From: Prosthecomicrobium pneumaticum
GTDB lineage: Bacteria > Pseudomonadota > Alphaproteobacteria > Rhizobiales > Kaistiaceae
NCBI RefSeq assembly: GCF_014199915.1
Contig: NZ_JACHOO010000001.1
Span: forward strand, 62,001 to 126,000
Length of the DNA: 64,000 nucleotides
Direction: 5' to 3'
Of the stretch, positions 680 to 33,952 are shown piece after piece. Position numbers and translations under genes: made by a program. The notes under the pieces are model-generated. The model ran no database searches. It saw only the letters and a list, made by a program, of their open reading frames with translations, and was not told the DNA's origin. Each line of letters starts with the position of its first letter. The first letter of the stretch is position 1.

Positions 680-1309
680 TCAGACTTCCTGTTCGCCGAG
701 GCGGGCGAGCCATGCCGCAATGCGTGTTTCGAGCAGGGTCGCCCCCGCCGTGACGGTCACCTCGGCGCCCGAGGCCGGCTCGAAGGTGACCGGCGCGTCG
801 GCCGCGAGCCGGGCGCGCAGCGCATCGATCAGGTCGGGCGCACCGCTGACGCGCAGCAAGGGCATGTTCTCGGCGGCGATCGCCGCGCGGATGAGACCGG
901 CGAGCTCGTCGAGAGCGCGGTTGCGCATTGCCGGCGCCAGGAACGGCTCGACGACACGGGCGAGCCGATCGCAGAGCGTCCGCTCGAGACCGGCGAGGCC
1001 GGCTTCGAGCGCGCGGGCGAGACCGTCGCCTTCCCGTTCGCTCCAGCTCTTGCGTTCCGCGGCAATGCGTTCCTCGAGTCGAGCCTGATCCTCGGCGCGC
1101 TGGCGCTCGAACGCCTGCCGGGCGGCCGCCTCGCCGGCGCGGCGCCCCTCGGCGGCGGCGGCCTCCGCGATCGCCTTCAGGTCGGGCTGCGGGGGCGCGG
1201 AAGGCGCTGCGGCCGGCGCGTGTCCCGACTCGGCCTTGGTCCGCTCCGCGCCGACCAGTTTCGGCAGGGCGTGCGAGAAGTCGGGGAGATGCTCCATCAG
1301 GGCGTGCAT
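680..1309 (-). CDS. fliH: FliH-like flagellar export regulator
   Basis: A 209-residue protein whose ATG overlaps the fliF stop codon (ATGA), implying translational coupling. Residues about 45-120 are rich in Ala, Glu, Arg and Gln and look like a long helix or coiled coil. The C-terminal half has the pattern of the FliH/YscL globular domain that binds FliI. Position directly after fliF fits FliH, the cytoplasmic stator of the export ATPase. Sequence similarity visible by eye is weak, so the call rests on length, coiled-coil character and context. A start nine codons upstream inside fliF is possible, but the ATGA overlap is the better choice. Confidence 0.62.
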   Translation of the reverse strand: MHALMEHLPDFSHALPKLVGAERTKAESGHAPAAAPSAPPQPDLKAIAEAAAAEGRRAGEAAARQAFERQRAEDQARLEERIAAERKSWSEREGDGLARALEAGLAGLERTLCDRLARVVEPFLAPAMRNRALDELAGLIRAAIAAENMPLLRVSGAPDLIDALRARLAADAPVTFEPASGAEVTVTAGATLLETRIAAWLARLGEQEV

Positions 1310-2946
1310 CAGGCGCGCGCCTCCTGTTGCAGCCACTGACGCAGGATCGCCGCGGCCTGCTCCTCATCGAAGTCGACGATCTGTTCCAGCCGCTTCTGCG
1401 GCGAACGGTTCATGCGCGAGGTGAGATCCTCGATCAGGTTGACCTGCTCGGCCGCAGTCAGCCGTTCCGGTCCGTCGGGGGCGGGCAGTTCACCCAAGGG
1501 GGCCGGCGCCGCGATCATCGCCGCCTCGATCGCTTCGGCCTCGTCCGGCCGGGCGACGATCGCCCGCACCGCCGGCTTGAGCCCGAACCAGATCAGGAGA
1601 ACGGCCACGATGAGGATCGTAGCGGCGTTCACCACCGTCCCCATCTGCCGCATCAGCACCTCGGTCCAGGACAGCGGCGGCACCGGCTCCAGCTCGCCAT
1701 TTCCGTCGGCGAACTCGACCGCCGAGACTTTGAGCTTGTCGCCCCGGTCCTTGTCGAACCCGGCGGCGGCGGCGGCGATCTGCTCGATCTCGTAGATCTG
1801 GGTTTCGATCGGTACCGCGTCCTTGGCGTCGGCCGCCGGGGCGAGGCGCGCCCGGTTGACGAGGATGGCGATCGACAGGTTCTCGACCGTGAAGGCGTCG
1901 CGCACCGTTTCGGTGTTGCGCGAGGAGATCTCGAAATTGGTGAGCTCCTCGCGGCGGTTGTTCTCCTCGTTCGAATTGTTGCCGCCATCCGCAGCGGCCT
2001 GCTCCGTCGGGACGTTCTGCTGGATCGACGCGCTCTGCTGCTGCGAGCGGTTCTGCGCGCTGCCGGTCTCGCGGACGACCCGGACGGAGCGCTCGGTCTT
2101 CGAACCGGGATCGTAGGTCGTCTCGCTCGTCGTCACGCGGTCGGTGTTGAGGCGGGCGGCGACGCTGATCTGGAAATTGTCGATACCGAGATAGGGCGTC
2201 AGGGCCCGGCGGATCTTCGCCTCGGTCTCCCGGTTCAACTGGTCCTGGAGAAGCGCCTTGCGTCCGGCCGAGGCATTGGTCGGGTCGTCGCCCGCGGCGA
2301 GCACGTCGCCCTCGGTGTTGAGCACGGTGACACCGTCGATCTTCATGCCCGGCAGGGCGGCGGCGACGAGATGCCGGATCGCGCTGGCGTCCGTGGCGTC
2401 GTTCGGATTGTCGGTGCGGATGACCACAGAGGCGGAGGCCTGCTGCTCTTCCCGGCGGAACGAGCCCCGCTCCGGCAGCACGATGTGAACGCGCGCGGCC
2501 CGGATGCCCTGCATGGTCTGAATGGTGCGGGCGAGCTCGCCCTCGAGCGCCCGGACCTTCGTCACCTCCTGCATGAAGGAGGTGAGGCCGAGCGCGTGCA
2601 CATCGTTGAACAGCTCGTAGCCCGAGCTCGAACTCTGCGGCAGGCCCTTCTCGGCGAGGAGCATGCGGGCGCGCGCCGTATCGGCCGGGGCGACCAGGAC
2701 GGCCGAGCCGTCGGCATTGACGTCGAAGTCGATGCCCGAGTCCTTGAGCGCGCCGCCGATCCGCGTCACGTCCTCGCGGCCGAGATTGGCGTAGAGCACC
2801 TCGCTGGTCGGCTGGCTCAGATAGTAGGCGCCGAGCGCGATGGTGGCGAGCACGGTGAGGCCGATCAGGCCGAGCGCGACGAGCCGCCTGGCGCCGAGCT
2901 GACGCAGATTGCTGAGGAGCAGCGCGAGTTGCTGACGCGCGACCAT
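1309..2946 (-). CDS. fliF: Flagellar MS-ring protein FliF
   Basis: Forms the MS ring in the inner membrane on which the C ring and export gate are built. The 545-residue length is normal. The first membrane segment lies at about residues 22-45, followed by the YscJ/FliF ring-building region, including EKGLPQSSSSGYELF and the helix TSFMQEVTKVRALEGELART. A low-complexity Asn/Glu/Gln stretch sits near residues 300-335, the second membrane segment at about 435-455, and the C-terminal FliG-binding tail ends in WLQQEARA. The gene heads its own short operon (fliF-fliH-motB) after a long non-coding stretch, separated from the flagellin by terminators. Confidence 0.96.
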   Translation of the reverse strand: MVARQQLALLLSNLRQLGARRLVALGLIGLTVLATIALGAYYLSQPTSEVLYANLGREDVTRIGGALKDSGIDFDVNADGSAVLVAPADTARARMLLAEKGLPQSSSSGYELFNDVHALGLTSFMQEVTKVRALEGELARTIQTMQGIRAARVHIVLPERGSFRREEQQASASVVIRTDNPNDATDASAIRHLVAAALPGMKIDGVTVLNTEGDVLAAGDDPTNASAGRKALLQDQLNRETEAKIRRALTPYLGIDNFQISVAARLNTDRVTTSETTYDPGSKTERSVRVVRETGSAQNRSQQQSASIQQNVPTEQAAADGGNNSNEENNRREELTNFEISSRNTETVRDAFTVENLSIAILVNRARLAPAADAKDAVPIETQIYEIEQIAAAAAGFDKDRGDKLKVSAVEFADGNGELEPVPPLSWTEVLMRQMGTVVNAATILIVAVLLIWFGLKPAVRAIVARPDEAEAIEAAMIAAPAPLGELPAPDGPERLTAAEQVNLIEDLTSRMNRSPQKRLEQIVDFDEEQAAAILRQWLQQEARA

Positions 2947-2993
2947 GGCTCATTGGCTCCGTCGAAGGCCCTGCGGGATGGGACCGCCGCCTC

Positions 2994-3066
2994 GGCGCCC
3001 CGGGGTGGGGACCCGGGGCGCCAGTCCGGATGCGCCGAAAGTGGGGGCAAAGCGACGGCATCCGGA
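2994..3066. repeat. Two adjacent perfect inverted repeats upstream of fliF
   Basis: GGCGCCCCGGG at 2994-3004 pairs with CCCGGGGCGCC at 3012-3022 (11-base arms, 7-base loop). TCCGGATGC at 3025-3033 pairs with GCATCCGGA at 3058-3066 (9-base arms). Both lie 48-120 bases upstream of the fliF start, in what would be its leader or promoter. They could be RNA stem-loops or dyad binding sites. No U-run follows either one, so they are not simple terminators. Confidence 0.6.
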
Positions 3067-3187
3067 CGAGAGGCAGGCGGCGATCGAGACATGGGCACCG
3101 CCGGCCGTCTCGACGAACCGAACCTCGCGCGACGAGCTTGCATGGGCATTGCGACGCGACGGAGCGAGGGGGGAGAGCATCCGTTCG

Positions 3188-3219
3188 AAAAAAAAGCCAC
3201 GCTTCCTTCGAAGCGTGGC
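3188..3219 (-). terminator. Intrinsic terminator, leftward
   Basis: GCCACGCTTC (3196-3205) pairs with GAAGCGTGGC (3210-3219) around a 4-base loop. Eight A on the plus strand (3188-3195) become a U-run directly after the stem on a minus-strand transcript. It ends something transcribed leftward between the flagellin terminator and this point, or acts as a second barrier protecting fliF from flagellin read-through. Confidence 0.9.
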
Positions 3220-3516
3220 CAGTTTGCCGGTCGTCGCGGGGAGGAAGGGGCGACGGGCCGGGACTTTCGCAGAGTGCGAAGGACGGTCCGCCGGTGTCGC
3301 GGGCCGTCGAAAAGGGGGCCGCATGCCTCCGAGCGCGCCACGGTGGGGGCCGTGGAGCGCCTTTCCGGCCGCGCGACGCGGGTATGGAGGAATCGCGCAC
3401 GGAACGGAGGCATGCGGTTGGCAGGACGCCGAGCGGGGGGGCCGGCGCCCTGCACAGTTGCATCCTCGCGCGCCTGGCTTGTCCGAGGGTTGCATCCTCG
3501 CGGGTCCGCGTGCCCC
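3188..3516 (-). ncRNA. Candidate structured RNA between two terminators
   Basis: A non-coding segment bounded upstream by the flagellin terminator and downstream by a perfect intrinsic terminator, both facing left. It contains a 13-base perfect closing stem (3319-3331 with 3405-3417) that encloses two smaller hairpins (3338-3343 with 3350-3355, and 3371-3376 with 3393-3398), resembling a three-way junction. Flanking hairpins lie at 3421-3453 (11 bp, one mismatch) and 3266-3280. No promoter was identified, and no known RNA family was recognised. The terminator orientation argues for the minus strand. The RNA interpretation is an inference. Confidence 0.35.
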
Positions 3517-3556
3517 CGAAAACAGAAAGGGCCACGCTTCCGAAGAAGCGTGGCCC
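3517..3556 (-). terminator. Intrinsic terminator of the flagellin gene
   Basis: GGGCCACGCTTC (3529-3540) pairs with GAAGCGTGGCCC (3545-3556) around a 4-base loop. On the minus strand it is followed by TTTCTGTTTT. It lies 32 bases after the flagellin stop codon. Its inner ten-base arms are identical to those of the next terminator at 3188-3219. Confidence 0.92.
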
Positions 3557-3588
3557 GGGCGCCCGGGACTGAGCGGGAGGAGTGCCGC

Positions 3589-4842
3589 TTAGCCTCGGAA
3601 CAGGCTGAGCACGCTCTGGGACGAGGAGTTGGCAATGCCGAGCGACTGGACGGCGAGCTGCTGCTGCGTCTGCAGGGCCTTCAGTCGGGTCGACTCCTCT
3701 TCCATGTTGGCGTCAACGAGCGCACCGATGGCGCGATTGTTGGCGTCCTGGAGGGCCTGCACGAAGTTCGTCTGCGACTCGATGCGGCTGGAAGCCGAGC
3801 CGAGCGTGGTGGAAGCATCGGTCAGGTCGGTCAGAGCCGAGTCGACGATCGAGGTGTAGTTCGCGATCTTGTCGAGATCGGCCTGGCTGGAGGACAGGCC
3901 CGAGATGTCGATATCCTTGATCGAGCTGACGGTCGCCGTGCCGCTGGCGGTCGCGGCGACGCGGGACTTGTCGAGGATGCCGAGATCGTTGGTGCCCGAA
4001 GCGCCCAGCGAGTTCTTCAGCGCGAGAACCGCACCGTCGAGCGCCGTCTTCTTGGCGGCGCCCGCCGTCGCATAGGACGAGTCCCGCGTGTTCTTCGCCG
4101 TCGCATAGGCGGCGTCACGGGTGGCGACCGCCGCCGCGTCCATCGCCGAACCGGCGAAGGTCGTGTCGGCCGCGCCGATCGCGGTGTTATAGGTCGTGTC
4201 CGCGGTCGTCTTGGCGGTGTCGTAGGTGGTGTCGGCCGTGGTCTTCGCCGTGGCGTAGGTGGCCGACGCCGTGGTCACCGCCGCGGCGACCGAGGTATGC
4301 TTCGTCGTGTTCGAGTCATACAGCTTGAACTTCGACGTATCGATGTTGATCGTGTCGACCTGCACCGTGTCACCCGTGCGGGAGAACGACGCCACGATCG
4401 CCTTGTTGGCGTTGTAGTTCGCCTCGCTCGAGTCGACCGACAGCCAGTTCGAGCCGGAGATCACGGTGCTCGCCGCGTTGTTCTTCAACTCGTCGAGCAG
4501 GCTGGTGATCTCGGTCTGGAGCTTGGTCCGGTCCGCGTCGGGCGACGCGGCCGTGATCAGCTTCTCCTTGACCTTCTGCAGCGCGTTCCGGACCGTATCG
4601 AGGCCGGTGTTCACCGTGTCGACGGACGACTTGGCGAGACCGAGCGCATCCTTCACCGCGCCGAGCGCACCGTTGTCGGAGCGGGTCGTCGTGGCGATGG
4701 ACCAATACGCCGCGTTGTCGGCGGCCGAATTGACCTTCAGGCCGGTCGAAACGTGGTTGTTGGTTTCGTCGAGGTTGGAGTTGATCATCCGCAGGGTCTG
4801 CAGCGCGACCATGCTGGACGTGTTGGTCATCAGGCTCGTCAT
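3589..4842 (-). CDS. Flagellin
   Basis: Filament subunit, 417 residues, secreted through the flagellar export system. The N-terminal D0/D1 helix reads MTSLMTNTSSMVALQTLRMI and the C-terminal D0 helix ends in LGIANSSSQSVLSLFRG, both standard for alphaproteobacterial flagellins. The middle (about residues 191-261) is an Ala/Thr-rich variable region with an 11-residue repeat whose Tyr/Phe fall at 196, 207, 218 and 229, then 246 and 257. The start at 4842 is chosen over an ATG 44 codons upstream because the filament N-terminus aligns here and AAGGGA lies 9 bases before it. Only one flagellin is in the window. Its own terminator follows. FlbT and FlaF, encoded near 23.3-24.1 kb, are expected to control its synthesis. 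Confidence 0.95.
   Translation of the reverse strand: MTSLMTNTSSMVALQTLRMINSNLDETNNHVSTGLKVNSAADNAAYWSIATTTRSDNGALGAVKDALGLAKSSVDTVNTGLDTVRNALQKVKEKLITAASPDADRTKLQTEITSLLDELKNNAASTVISGSNWLSVDSSEANYNANKAIVASFSRTGDTVQVDTINIDTSKFKLYDSNTTKHTSVAAAVTTASATYATAKTTADTTYDTAKTTADTTYNTAIGAADTTFAGSAMDAAAVATRDAAYATAKNTRDSSYATAGAAKKTALDGAVLALKNSLGASGTNDLGILDKSRVAATASGTATVSSIKDIDISGLSSSQADLDKIANYTSIVDSALTDLTDASTTLGSASSRIESQTNFVQALQDANNRAIGALVDANMEEESTRLKALQTQQQLAVQSLGIANSSSQSVLSLFRG
4060..4272 (-). repeat. 33-base coding repeats in flagellin variable domain
   Basis: Successive 11-residue units (TASATYATAKT, TADTTYDTAKT, TADTTYNTAIG, AADTTFAGSAM) are followed by two looser copies with Tyr246 and Tyr257. Spacing of 11 is that of a hendecad coiled coil. 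The nucleotide units are also similar, pointing to recent tandem duplication inside the gene. Confidence 0.85.
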
Positions 4843-4848
4843 GATAGA

Positions 4849-4886
4849 ATGTCCCTTGAGGGTTGTATGAAGGTTTCGCGGGACAT
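4849..4886 (-). promoter_or_regulatory. Hairpin over the flagellin ribosome-binding site
   Basis: On the flagellin mRNA, ATGTCCC (plus positions 4886-4880) can pair with GGGACAT (4855-4849) around a 24-base loop. The second arm includes part of the AAGGGA Shine-Dalgarno sequence, which lies 9 bases before the start codon. Such a leader could hold flagellin translation in check and is a plausible target for FlbT. The pairing is seen in the sequence; the regulation is inferred. Confidence 0.55.
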
Positions 4887-5071
4887 ACCGGGCTGAAACC
4901 GGCATGGCAGAGGCGGCGTCATGCCTTTGTTGGGAGACGTCCTTGCGGGGTTCGTCTCTCGTCCGACGGACCATGGTGGCCGGCGGTCAATCTGCCATGT
5001 TTCGAGCTTCGCATCGGAAGCTTGCGCCAGGCTTGCCGCAGCGTCGTCCCGGAAAGGGGAGCTCGAGAGCA

Positions 5072-11430: not shown

Positions 11431-11497
11431 GGGGCACTCCGAACTCTCGATGGAACCAGATTAGGACGAGAACCTTGCTTGGGGCTGGCGGCGCCGA

Positions 11498-16493: not shown

Positions 16494-16630
16494 GGTGATG
16501 CCACTCCGTTGTTGCGGAGCGGTCTAGGCCGACAAGGTTGCGCGAGGCTGGCCGCGATGAGCCGGCGGGGTGGAAAGCCCCGTGCAAGGTTGTCGGGGGA
16601 GGGTGCCGGACGAAGAAGGGCGGCCCGGCC
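16494..16630. promoter_or_regulatory. Divergent promoter region between motA and DUF1217 gene
   Basis: The 137 bases between the two large divergent flagellar operons must hold both promoters. CGACAAGGTTGC at 16530-16541 and GCAAGGTTGTCG at 16584-16595 form an imperfect inverted repeat (GCAA and TTGTCG mirrored, central GG unpaired). CTCCG and CGGAG flank TTGTTG near motA. Core promoter elements could not be assigned. Confidence 0.5.
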
Positions 16631-31276: not shown

Positions 31277-33952
31277 ATGGATGACCTGCTGCGAGAGTTC
31301 CTGACCGAGACCAATGAGAGCCTCGACGTTGCCGATACCGAACTTGTGAAGTTCGAGACCGACCCCGGCAACCGCGAGATCCTGAACAACATCTTCCGGC
31401 TCGTGCACACCATCAAGGGCACATGTGGCTTCATCGGCCTCAGCCGGCTCGCCGGTCTCGCTCACGCGGCCGAGACGCTGATGGACGAGTTCCGCAACGG
31501 CCGGCCGATCACGTCGGGCTCTGTCGGGCTGATCCTCTCCACGATCGACCGGATCAAGACCCTGCTCGCCGAGATCGAGCAGCGCGACGGCACCGAGCCC
31601 GAGGGTTCGGACGCGGATCTGATCGCCGCGCTGGAGGCGGAGGTCGCCCGCGTTCCTGAGCCGGTTGCCGTTCCGGCCGCAGCGCCCGCTCCGGCGCCGG
31701 CGCCCGCGGCGACGTCGATCGGGGCCGTCATCGAACGGCTGGAGCGCGAGTTGCTGCCCGGTGAGGTGCCGCTCGCCGAACTCGACCGCGTCTTCCGCGA
31801 GACGGACGTCGAGGTTCGGGCGCCCAAGCCCGCCGCCTCGGCGGCGCGGCCGGTCGCCGCCGAAGCGCCCGCCGCGGCCGCCTCGCACGACTCGGTCTCG
31901 GCGCAGACGATCCGTGTCAATCTCGGCACGCTCGAGCAGCTGATGACCATGGTCTCGGAACTGGTGCTCACCCGCAACCAGCTGCTCGAAATCTCCCGCC
32001 GCAACGAGGACAGCGAATACAAGGTCTCGCTGCAGCGGCTCTCCAACGTCACCGGCGAGCTGCAGGACATCGTCATGCGGACCCGGATGCAGCCGATCGG
32101 CAATGCCTGGCAGAAGCTGCCGCGCATCGTCCGCGATCTGGCGCAGGATCTCGGCAAGCAGATCGAGCTGGAACAGCACGGCGCCGAGACCGAACTCGAC
32201 CGCCAGGTGCTCGACCAGATCAAGGATCCGCTCACCCATATGGTGCGCAATTCCGCCGATCACGGGCTCGAGACACCGGAAGCGCGGCGCGCCGCGGGCA
32301 AGCCGGAGCGGGGCACCATCCGTCTCTCGGCCTATCACGAAGGCGGCCACGTCATCCTCGAGATCGCCGATGATGGCCGCGGCCTCGATGTCGCCCGGAT
32401 CCGGGCGAAAGCGATCGAGAACGGGCTCTGCACCGAGGCCGAGGCGGGGCGGATGCCGGACGCTCAGCTCTACCGCTTCATCTTCCACGCCGGCTTCTCG
32501 ACCGCGAAGGCGGTGACGAGCGTATCGGGCCGCGGCGTCGGCATGGATGTGGTGCGCAACAACATCGAGGCGATCGGCGGCACGGTCGACGTGCGGTCGA
32601 AGCCCGGCAAGGGCACCACCTTCGTCATCAAGATCCCGCTCACCCTCGCCATCGTCCCGGCGCTGATCGTCCGCGCCGGCGAGGAACGCTTCGCCCTGCC
32701 GCAGACGGTGGTGCTCGAACTGGTGCGGGTCCGCGAGGGCTCGGAGCACTCGATCCGCCGCATCAACGGCACGCCGGTCCTGTCGCTGCGCGAGCAGCTG
32801 CTGCCGATCGTCGATCTCGGTGCGGCGCTCGGCGTCCGCCGCCGCGAGGCCGAACTCGTCGGCAACGGCCGCGAGGACGCGCTGATCGCTGTGATGAATG
32901 TCGGCGCGCAGCAGTTCGGCGTGGTGGTCGACGCGGTGTCCCATACCGAAGAGATCGTCGTGAAGCCCCTCGCTTCGATGTTGCGGCACGTCTCGATGGT
33001 CTCCGGCAGCACGATCCTCGGCGACGGCCGCGTCATCATGATCGTCGACCCGAACGGCCTCGCCCAGCTCGCGGCTGCCCGTGCCGAGAAGACCGCCGAC
33101 ATGGACACGGTCACTGCGGCCGAACACGGTGCGGAAAAGAACGCGCTCACTTCGCTCCTGCTCTTCCGGGCCGGCGCACAAGGCATCAAGGCCGTGCCTC
33201 TCTCGCTCGTCACCCGGCTCGAGGAGCTCGACGCCAGCAATCTCGAGGAGCTCGACGGCCGTCCCGTCGTCCAGTATCGCGGTACGCTCATCCCGGTGCT
33301 CTACGCCAATGCCGAGGTCGAGCGGCGCACCAGCGGCCGTCAGCCGCTCCTCATCTTCTCGGAGGGGACACAGACGATCGGCCTCGTCGTCGACGAGATC
33401 GTCGACATCGTGGAGACCGAGCTGCGCCTGCAGCTCTCGCCGGCGACGCCGGAACTCATCGGCGGCGCGATCATCAACGGCATCGCCACCGAAGTCTACG
33501 ATGTCGGCCACTTCATGGGCGCGGCCTTCGGCGGCGATCTCCAGGTGACGCCGCACTTCGAGGGGCGGGCGCACCGGCTTCTGCTCGTGGACGAGAACGC
33601 CTTCCTGCGGGCGCTCCTCGAGCCGCTGCTGCGCGGCCACGGCTACCGCGTCATCACCTGCCGCACGGCCCGCGAGGCGCTCGACCGGCTGTCCGCCGAT
33701 CGTGACTTCGCCGCCGTCGTCAGCGGGGTCGGTGCGGACGATGTCGACGGGTTCCACCTCGCCGAGGCGATCCGCAACGAGCTCGGCCTCGAGGATCTGC
33801 CGATCATCGGCGTCGCCTCGACCAGCCGTCCCGAACTCATCGAGCGCGGCCGCGAGGCCGGCTTCACCGATTATGTCGCGAAGTTCGACCGGCCGGGCCT
33901 GATGGCGGCGCTGCGCGAATTCGCCTCGAACGAGCACCTGGAGGCCGCATGA
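31277..33952 (+). CDS. cheA: Hybrid chemotaxis histidine kinase CheA
   Basis: Kinase that couples receptors to CheY and CheB. The 891-residue protein is longer than classical CheA. The HPt domain has the phospho-accepting His44 (RLVHTIKGTCGF). A long Ala/Pro linker follows, with no clear P2 domain. Dimerisation helices lie at about 205-270, the HATPase at 300-455 (N box HMVRNSADHG, G boxes DDGRGLD and GRGVGMDVV), and a first CheW domain at 456-600. A second CheW-like domain spans 622-755 and a receiver domain 766-885. In the receiver the acidic pair D772/E773 and K869 are kept, but the phospho-acceptor aspartate is replaced by Gly817. Its stop overlaps cheW. Confidence 0.95.
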   Translation: MDDLLREFLTETNESLDVADTELVKFETDPGNREILNNIFRLVHTIKGTCGFIGLSRLAGLAHAAETLMDEFRNGRPITSGSVGLILSTIDRIKTLLAEIEQRDGTEPEGSDADLIAALEAEVARVPEPVAVPAAAPAPAPAPAATSIGAVIERLERELLPGEVPLAELDRVFRETDVEVRAPKPAASAARPVAAEAPAAAASHDSVSAQTIRVNLGTLEQLMTMVSELVLTRNQLLEISRRNEDSEYKVSLQRLSNVTGELQDIVMRTRMQPIGNAWQKLPRIVRDLAQDLGKQIELEQHGAETELDRQVLDQIKDPLTHMVRNSADHGLETPEARRAAGKPERGTIRLSAYHEGGHVILEIADDGRGLDVARIRAKAIENGLCTEAEAGRMPDAQLYRFIFHAGFSTAKAVTSVSGRGVGMDVVRNNIEAIGGTVDVRSKPGKGTTFVIKIPLTLAIVPALIVRAGEERFALPQTVVLELVRVREGSEHSIRRINGTPVLSLREQLLPIVDLGAALGVRRREAELVGNGREDALIAVMNVGAQQFGVVVDAVSHTEEIVVKPLASMLRHVSMVSGSTILGDGRVIMIVDPNGLAQLAAARAEKTADMDTVTAAEHGAEKNALTSLLLFRAGAQGIKAVPLSLVTRLEELDASNLEELDGRPVVQYRGTLIPVLYANAEVERRTSGRQPLLIFSEGTQTIGLVVDEIVDIVETELRLQLSPATPELIGGAIINGIATEVYDVGHFMGAAFGGDLQVTPHFEGRAHRLLLVDENAFLRALLEPLLRGHGYRVITCRTAREALDRLSADRDFAAVVSGVGADDVDGFHLAEAIRNELGLEDLPIIGVASTSRPELIERGREAGFTDYVAKFDRPGLMAALREFASNEHLEAA

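Follow-up and report, generated by a model that had tools for sequence, protein, structure and literature searches.

A noncoding segment between a flagellin gene and fliF

The DNA analyzed here (the window) is a 64,000-nucleotide stretch of the 4.65-Mb genome of Prosthecomicrobium pneumaticum. On its minus strand, a flagellin gene and fliF are separated by a segment that we call copy A. In the direction of transcription, the order is flagellin gene, T1, segment, T2, box 2, fliF leader, and fliF. The genes and terminators are placed as follows.

3589-4842, minus strand: flagellin gene, with Flagellin_N and Flagellin_C domains and its stop at 3589
3529-3556, minus strand: T1, intrinsic terminator (12 pairs plus a T-run) that lies behind the flagellin gene and opens copy A
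3195-3220, minus strand: T2, intrinsic terminator (11 pairs plus a T-run), a paralogue of T1 that ends the predicted RNA
1309-2946, minus strand: fliF, whose product matches FliF of six Ancylobacter-type loci at 78-80% identity along almost its entire length

An initial annotation of this DNA described two look-alike minus-strand terminators that bracket the segment, and this description holds. The stems of T1 (3556-3529) and T2 (3220-3195) are nearly identical, and these are the sole minus-strand stem-loops with T-runs detected in 2000-5000. Shuffled sequences lead one to expect 1.5 ± 1.2 such terminators, so the presence of two is not significant by itself. T2 is near-perfect and, judged by its sequence, a good terminator. 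When a simple pattern is applied to 30 relative loci, one terminator is found in 25, two are found in 2, and none is found in 3; the window has two.

Of the 51 loci retrieved with FliF, those of the Ancylobacter type are the nearest (FliF 78-80%, flagellin 87-88%). For FliF, the flagellin, and an 891-aa open reading frame (ORF) at 31277-33952, which together span 1309-33952 of the window, the nearest counterparts among the genomes compared are those of Ancylobacter, where the spacing of approximately 28.3 kb is equal. FliF is present in 3 of 28 genomes of the host's own family, the host included. The Ancylobacter likeness of these three proteins may reflect horizontal transfer, loss within the family, or an odd placement of the host.

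Two fliF-type promoter boxes

A promoter box of the type found upstream of fliF occurs twice in this region, each time with a -10-like element after it.

3478-3493, minus strand: box 1, fliF-type promoter box of copy A (GCAACCCTCGGACAAG), with zero mismatches to the consensus of the relatives
3462-3467, minus strand: GAGGAT, putative -10 element of copy A
3137-3152, minus strand: box 2, fliF promoter box (GCAATGCCCATGCAAG), matching both consensus and matrix
3121-3126, minus strand: GAGGTT, -10-like element of the fliF copy and counterpart of GAGGAT

The consensus GCAAYSYYCRBRCAAG, which was written with box 1 in view and whose columns follow equally from the relatives alone, fits all 30 relative loci upstream of fliF. 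Its two zero-mismatch matches in the window are box 1 and box 2. Even when position 11 is loosened to N, these are the two matches in the entire genome, and the reversed control gives none. Each of the 30 relatives carries exactly one box. The window carries two, in the order terminator-box-terminator-box.

We also derived a 40-column promoter matrix from 26 distinct relative promoters, which are the 30 relative loci minus 4 duplicate 40-mers; among these loci, L074 and L085 have an identical gap sequence, and in L104 fliF is not preceded by a flagellin gene. In the alignment of these promoters, the box is accompanied by an invariant T that follows CAAGN and by a -10-like element whose A and T are invariant. 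The top five matches in the window are at 3152 (fliF), 16573, 3493 (box 1), 11489, and 5036 (flagellin). The candidate promoter of copy A, which ranks third, has a box and a -10-like element, yet it is weaker than the promoters of all 26 relatives. Its score is 11.7, compared with 21.6 for the lowest relative (leave-one-out) and 37.1 for the fliF promoter, and it is alone among the top five in lacking the T that is fixed after CAAGN in 26 of 26 relatives.

Weaker fliF-type boxes are located at 16573 (plus strand) before flgF/fliI genes, at 11489 (minus strand) before a small ORF that we take from its position to be flgB-like, and at 5036 (minus strand) before the flagellin gene. Perhaps these mark a common flagellar activator site. 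The flagellin match is weak because the sixth match, at 4877, scores nearly as high (5.35 vs 5.41). An exact 14-base direct repeat, GTTGCATCCTCGCG, at 3457-3470 and 3489-3502 overlaps box 1 and its -10-like element.

The fliF-type box is itself a direct repeat with an 11-bp period. OmpR-type proteins often bind direct repeats of such a period. FtcR of Brucella is reported to bind the region ahead of fliF, with TGTGGGCA as its ChIP motif (PMC9456535), and in Azorhizobium the loss of the FtcR-like protein ActR is reported to lower fliF expression (PMC8639532). As described in these sources, fliF is a target in the FtcR and ActR systems. The Brucella motif has zero matches in the window.

Fold of the segment and the predicted RNA

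The segment contains the following structural features.

3195-3455, minus strand: predicted noncoding transcript of approximately 261 nt, with its probable start about 7 nt past the -10-like element
3421-3453, minus strand: predicted 5′-terminal hairpin of this transcript
3319-3417, minus strand: three-way junction of copy A, formed by an outer stem (3405-3417 with 3319-3331) and hairpins 1 and 2
3221-3295, minus strand: 75-nt stretch between the leader copy and T2

The perfect 13-base stem reported in the initial annotation (3319-3331 with 3405-3417) is indeed exact and has two hairpins inside. Hairpin 1 carries a pyrimidine-rich loop in which CTCCATACCC is unpaired, and the loop of hairpin 2 is CCCCCA. 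Such a stem is less unusual than had been claimed, given that the 64-kb window holds three exact 13-mer inverted pairs within approximately 150 bases, this one among them. Likewise, 41 of 1052 tiles qualify as three-way junctions under a common criterion, which copy A passes and copy B, the fliF leader, fails. The adjacent hairpin at 3421-3453, described as having 11 bases, is present, but the DNA is complementary at 10 of 11 positions. In RNA, the odd position would be a G-U pair if the minus strand is transcribed and an A-C mismatch if the plus strand is. Because this position pairs in minus-strand RNA alone, the minus strand is favored.

Comparison with shuffled sequences, which had been put forward as a check on the fold, gives a clear result. 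For 3195-3528, the folding energy has a z score of -5.5 on the minus strand and -2.9 on the plus strand (100 shuffles each), and the corresponding values for the 99-nt core are -5.8 and -5.0. The 100 control tiles, each 199 nt long, come from both strands of the first 20 kb and include two that overlap the segment; their z scores have a mean of -0.4, a standard deviation of 1.2, and a minimum of -3.4. The predicted transcript from 3455 to 3195, with the T2 hairpin included, folds with an energy of -148.2 compared with -111.9 ± 4.6 for shuffles, of which 0 of 150 are as low. Thus, the whole fold is exceptional, whereas the 13-base stem or the three-way junction by itself is not rare.

The unpaired bases of the predicted transcript are 58% C, compared with 49.5 ± 2.8% in shuffles, and 0 of 150 shuffles reach this value. 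These C-rich loops suggest that the RNA might engage in anti-Shine-Dalgarno pairing. No significant similarity links 3221-3300 with the end of the flagellin gene, the fliF start, or the flagellin leader.

Because no frame that begins with ATG, GTG, or TTG reaches a stop within the predicted transcript, the RNA is probably noncoding, and 3295-3221 has no such start codon. A hidden protein was also considered and gained no support, since none of six ORFs that overlap the segment, on both strands, matches a Pfam family. A mobile element or repeat was set aside as well, since a DNA search of 61 genomes gives no second long copy in the host genome among the matches listed. Rfam release 15 has no match in the window at gathering score. 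When 2900-3700 is searched at E values up to 1, three weak matches appear, the best of which is BSnc119 at T2 (22.7 bits, compared with a gathering score of 115).

Copy A as a paralogue of the fliF leader

The segment is best read as a diverged tandem duplicate of the fliF terminator, promoter box, and leader. The counterpart of its structured part lies within the following features.

2947-3114, minus strand: copy B, the fliF 5′ leader, with a matching three-way junction (from the joint fold and a covariance model)
2994-3022, minus strand: hairpin 2 of this leader, conserved, with pairs changed on both sides, in Ancylobacter loci that have long leaders

The offsets from A to B are constant, at 335-336 for the terminators, 341 for the boxes, 337 for the start of the junction, and 335 for the leader end. 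The outer stem and three-way junction are found in both copies. Copy B is the one directly upstream of fliF; copy A is followed by T2. Although it lacks an Rfam match, the fliF leader is itself structured (z of -3.85 for 2947-3110), and copy A is on par with it over a comparable length (z of -4.1).

Sequence similarity between the copies is significant but modest. The 89 identities of the alignment are reached by 1 of 250 shuffles and 0 of 296 window segments, and the score from sequence alone is reached, depending on the scoring scheme, by 0-1 of 650 window segments and 0-8 of 500 dinucleotide shuffles. We call this similarity modest because 0-1 of 38 C-rich window segments also reach the score, and we therefore turned to structural tests. 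When a covariance model is built solely from the fliF leader, entered as two rows that differ in length by one base and given the predicted fold of this leader, copy A, which the model has not seen, is the best other match in the window at 20.1 bits (E 0.0043). This match spans the whole junction, and the next-best match has 14.5 bits. Furthermore, the consensus energy of A and B together is -43.9 kcal/mol, a value reached by none of 200 column shuffles (-23.1 ± 3.8), 250 shuffles of B (-20.1 ± 5.4), or 296 other window segments (-18.0 ± 5.9).

The joint fold contains 35 pairs, of which 25 are unchanged between the copies, 2 have one-sided changes, 8 have two-sided changes, and 0 are broken, in a structure predicted from the same alignment that was used for counting. 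When only the 27 junction pairs are considered, the corresponding numbers are 20 unchanged, 2 one-sided, and 5 two-sided. For the joint fold as a whole, 1 of 500 shuffles does as well, and slid alignments come to at most 1. When the outer stem and hairpin 2 are aligned by hand, three of 22 pairs have two-sided changes, and one outer pair is lost in copy B.

Several alternatives must be weighed against this relationship. The structure could have arisen by chance in a GC-rich spacer between two terminators, and the occurrence of 13-mer inverted pairs and three-way junctions elsewhere in the window speaks for this view. However, minus-strand energy z scores of approximately -5.5 to -8 across tests, the box match, the paralogy at constant offset, and the two-sided changes make chance an explanation that we give almost no weight.

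It is also conceivable that the segment is the scar of a second flagellin gene, a paralogue whose promoter, leader, and terminator stayed behind when it was deleted. In favor of this view, some loci have two flagellin-like matches upstream of fliF (e.g., L068, L076, L077, L081, and L082). Copy A is nearer to the fliF leader than to the flagellin leader, however, with scores of 66 (0 of 300 shuffles) and 36 (9 of 300), respectively, and it contains no convincing flagellin remnant (best tblastn E value of 0.40). A flagellin relic is accordingly disfavored and seems highly improbable.

A third alternative is that the segment acts in cis on fliF: transcription from box 1 through copy A would continue into a longer fliF message, with T2 as an attenuator on the way. 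Every part points in the fliF direction directly upstream of fliF, and T2 precedes box 2. Nevertheless, the sequence of T2 is that of a good terminator, and past it fliF has a better promoter of its own. We consider a cis-acting role to be improbable.

Conservation in other genomes

Compensatory base changes in relatives had been named as a check on the structure, and the outcome is mixed. Such changes are evident between copies A and B and in hairpin 2 of relatives, but the full structure was not found in the other genomes searched. Specifically, the two copies of the host have E values below 1e-28 in a search of 24 genomes for the full junction, which was not found in the 23 others; matches to the junction model, which was built from the host's own two copies, occur in four other genomes with a best E value of 0.065.

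Copy A, the fliF leader, and four Ancylobacter leaders can be aligned over hairpin 2, several pairs of which show two-sided changes. Models place this hairpin at the corresponding site in L037, L119, and L089 (E 0.0097), and another model finds it in L037 and L119 (E 0.0008). Other Ancylobacter loci carry a short fliF leader. In shared-fold tests with 16 of the 30 leaders, copy B shares a fold with L089, L090, and L091 (0 of 60 shuffles each), and copy A shares fold energy with L090, L091, and L124. Copy B with L124 and copy A with L089 have no shared fold above shuffles. The 12 shorter leaders yield no clear shared fold, the best being copy A with L095 (z of -2.0) and copy B with L122 (z of -2.1). 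A model made from copy B and three Ancylobacter leaders fails to identify copy A convincingly, with a partial match at 3317-3366 (10.3 bits, E 0.63, rank 6). A DNA search of 60 other genomes gives no homologue of the segment among the matches listed, all of which are shorter than 60 bases (best E 2.6e-4).

Because the promoter of copy A has weakened, the segment might be a functionless, decaying duplicate that is transcribed weakly or not at all and that owes its stable fold to its descent from the fliF leader. Its box scores below all 26 relatives and has lost the fixed T, and the lack of a homologue in the 60 or 23 other genomes fits the same view. Against this, the junction pairs have been kept through five two-sided changes (in the structure predicted on that same alignment), copy A, when compared with shuffles, folds as well as the fliF leader at comparable length, and T2 is near-perfect. 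We view decay as a serious alternative, if an unlikely one.

A proposed second fliF leader unit and its possible function

We lean toward the conclusion that the fliF leader unit is present a second time in the segment, as a free-standing tandem duplicate that would give rise to a noncoding RNA of approximately 260 nt made together with fliF. The segment looks like an sRNA produced by tandem duplication because it is a leader copy with its own flagellar-type promoter and terminator, and copy A would give a noncoding RNA because no fliF start lies behind it and it runs into T2. The initial annotation had proposed a structured minus-strand RNA in the flagellar regulon. That remains the best reading, and box 1 now links the segment to the fliF promoter; what had gone unnoticed is that the segment duplicates in tandem the fliF terminator and promoter as well as the leader.

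If this leader-unit interpretation is correct, a tandem duplication of approximately 340 bp would have copied the series of terminator, fliF-type promoter, and leader RNA between the flagellin gene and fliF. Box 1 would recruit the flagellar activator and polymerase used by the fliF promoter. Transcription of copy A, which we infer, would begin near 3455, the RNA would fold into its 5′ hairpin and three-way junction, and T2 would end it at approximately 260 nt.

The function of such an RNA is more speculative. As a sibling or decoy, copy A might compete with the fliF leader for a factor that binds or cleaves that leader, or perhaps its C-rich loops pair with G-rich translation starts. A more specific proposal is a trans-acting flagellar sRNA that arose from a tandem-duplicated promoter and structured leader and that, with the fold still in common, titrates a fliF-leader factor. 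We offer this proposal as tentative and doubtful.

Campylobacter jejuni belongs to another phylum. There, sRNAs are reported to regulate flagellar gene expression (PMC11187230); copy A would have the flagellar link in common with them, and the regulators differ. Among the E. coli sRNAs derived from untranslated regions of the flagellar regulon are UhpU, MotR, FliX, and FlgO (PMC10578931). Copy A would resemble these RNAs, as that source describes them, in being noncoding, linked to flagellar regulation, and of untranslated-region origin. In contrast to those RNAs, which are UTR-derived and controlled by sigma-28, it would be a separate tandem leader copy with its own terminator and another promoter type. 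Sibling sRNAs (PMC4211561) are similar in that related RNA copies reside in one genome, but in this genome the siblings would be an mRNA leader and a free-standing RNA. Among the titles listed in the literature on flagellar sRNAs and leader RNAs, there is no fliF leader RNA or duplicate.

In our judgment, the origin of new sRNAs is poorly known. At this locus, the parent leader and its putative offspring adjoin, and leader, duplicate, promoter, and terminator are all open to comparison. A further indication from this work is that fliF, an early flagellar gene, has a structured leader, one hairpin of which covaries in some Ancylobacter.
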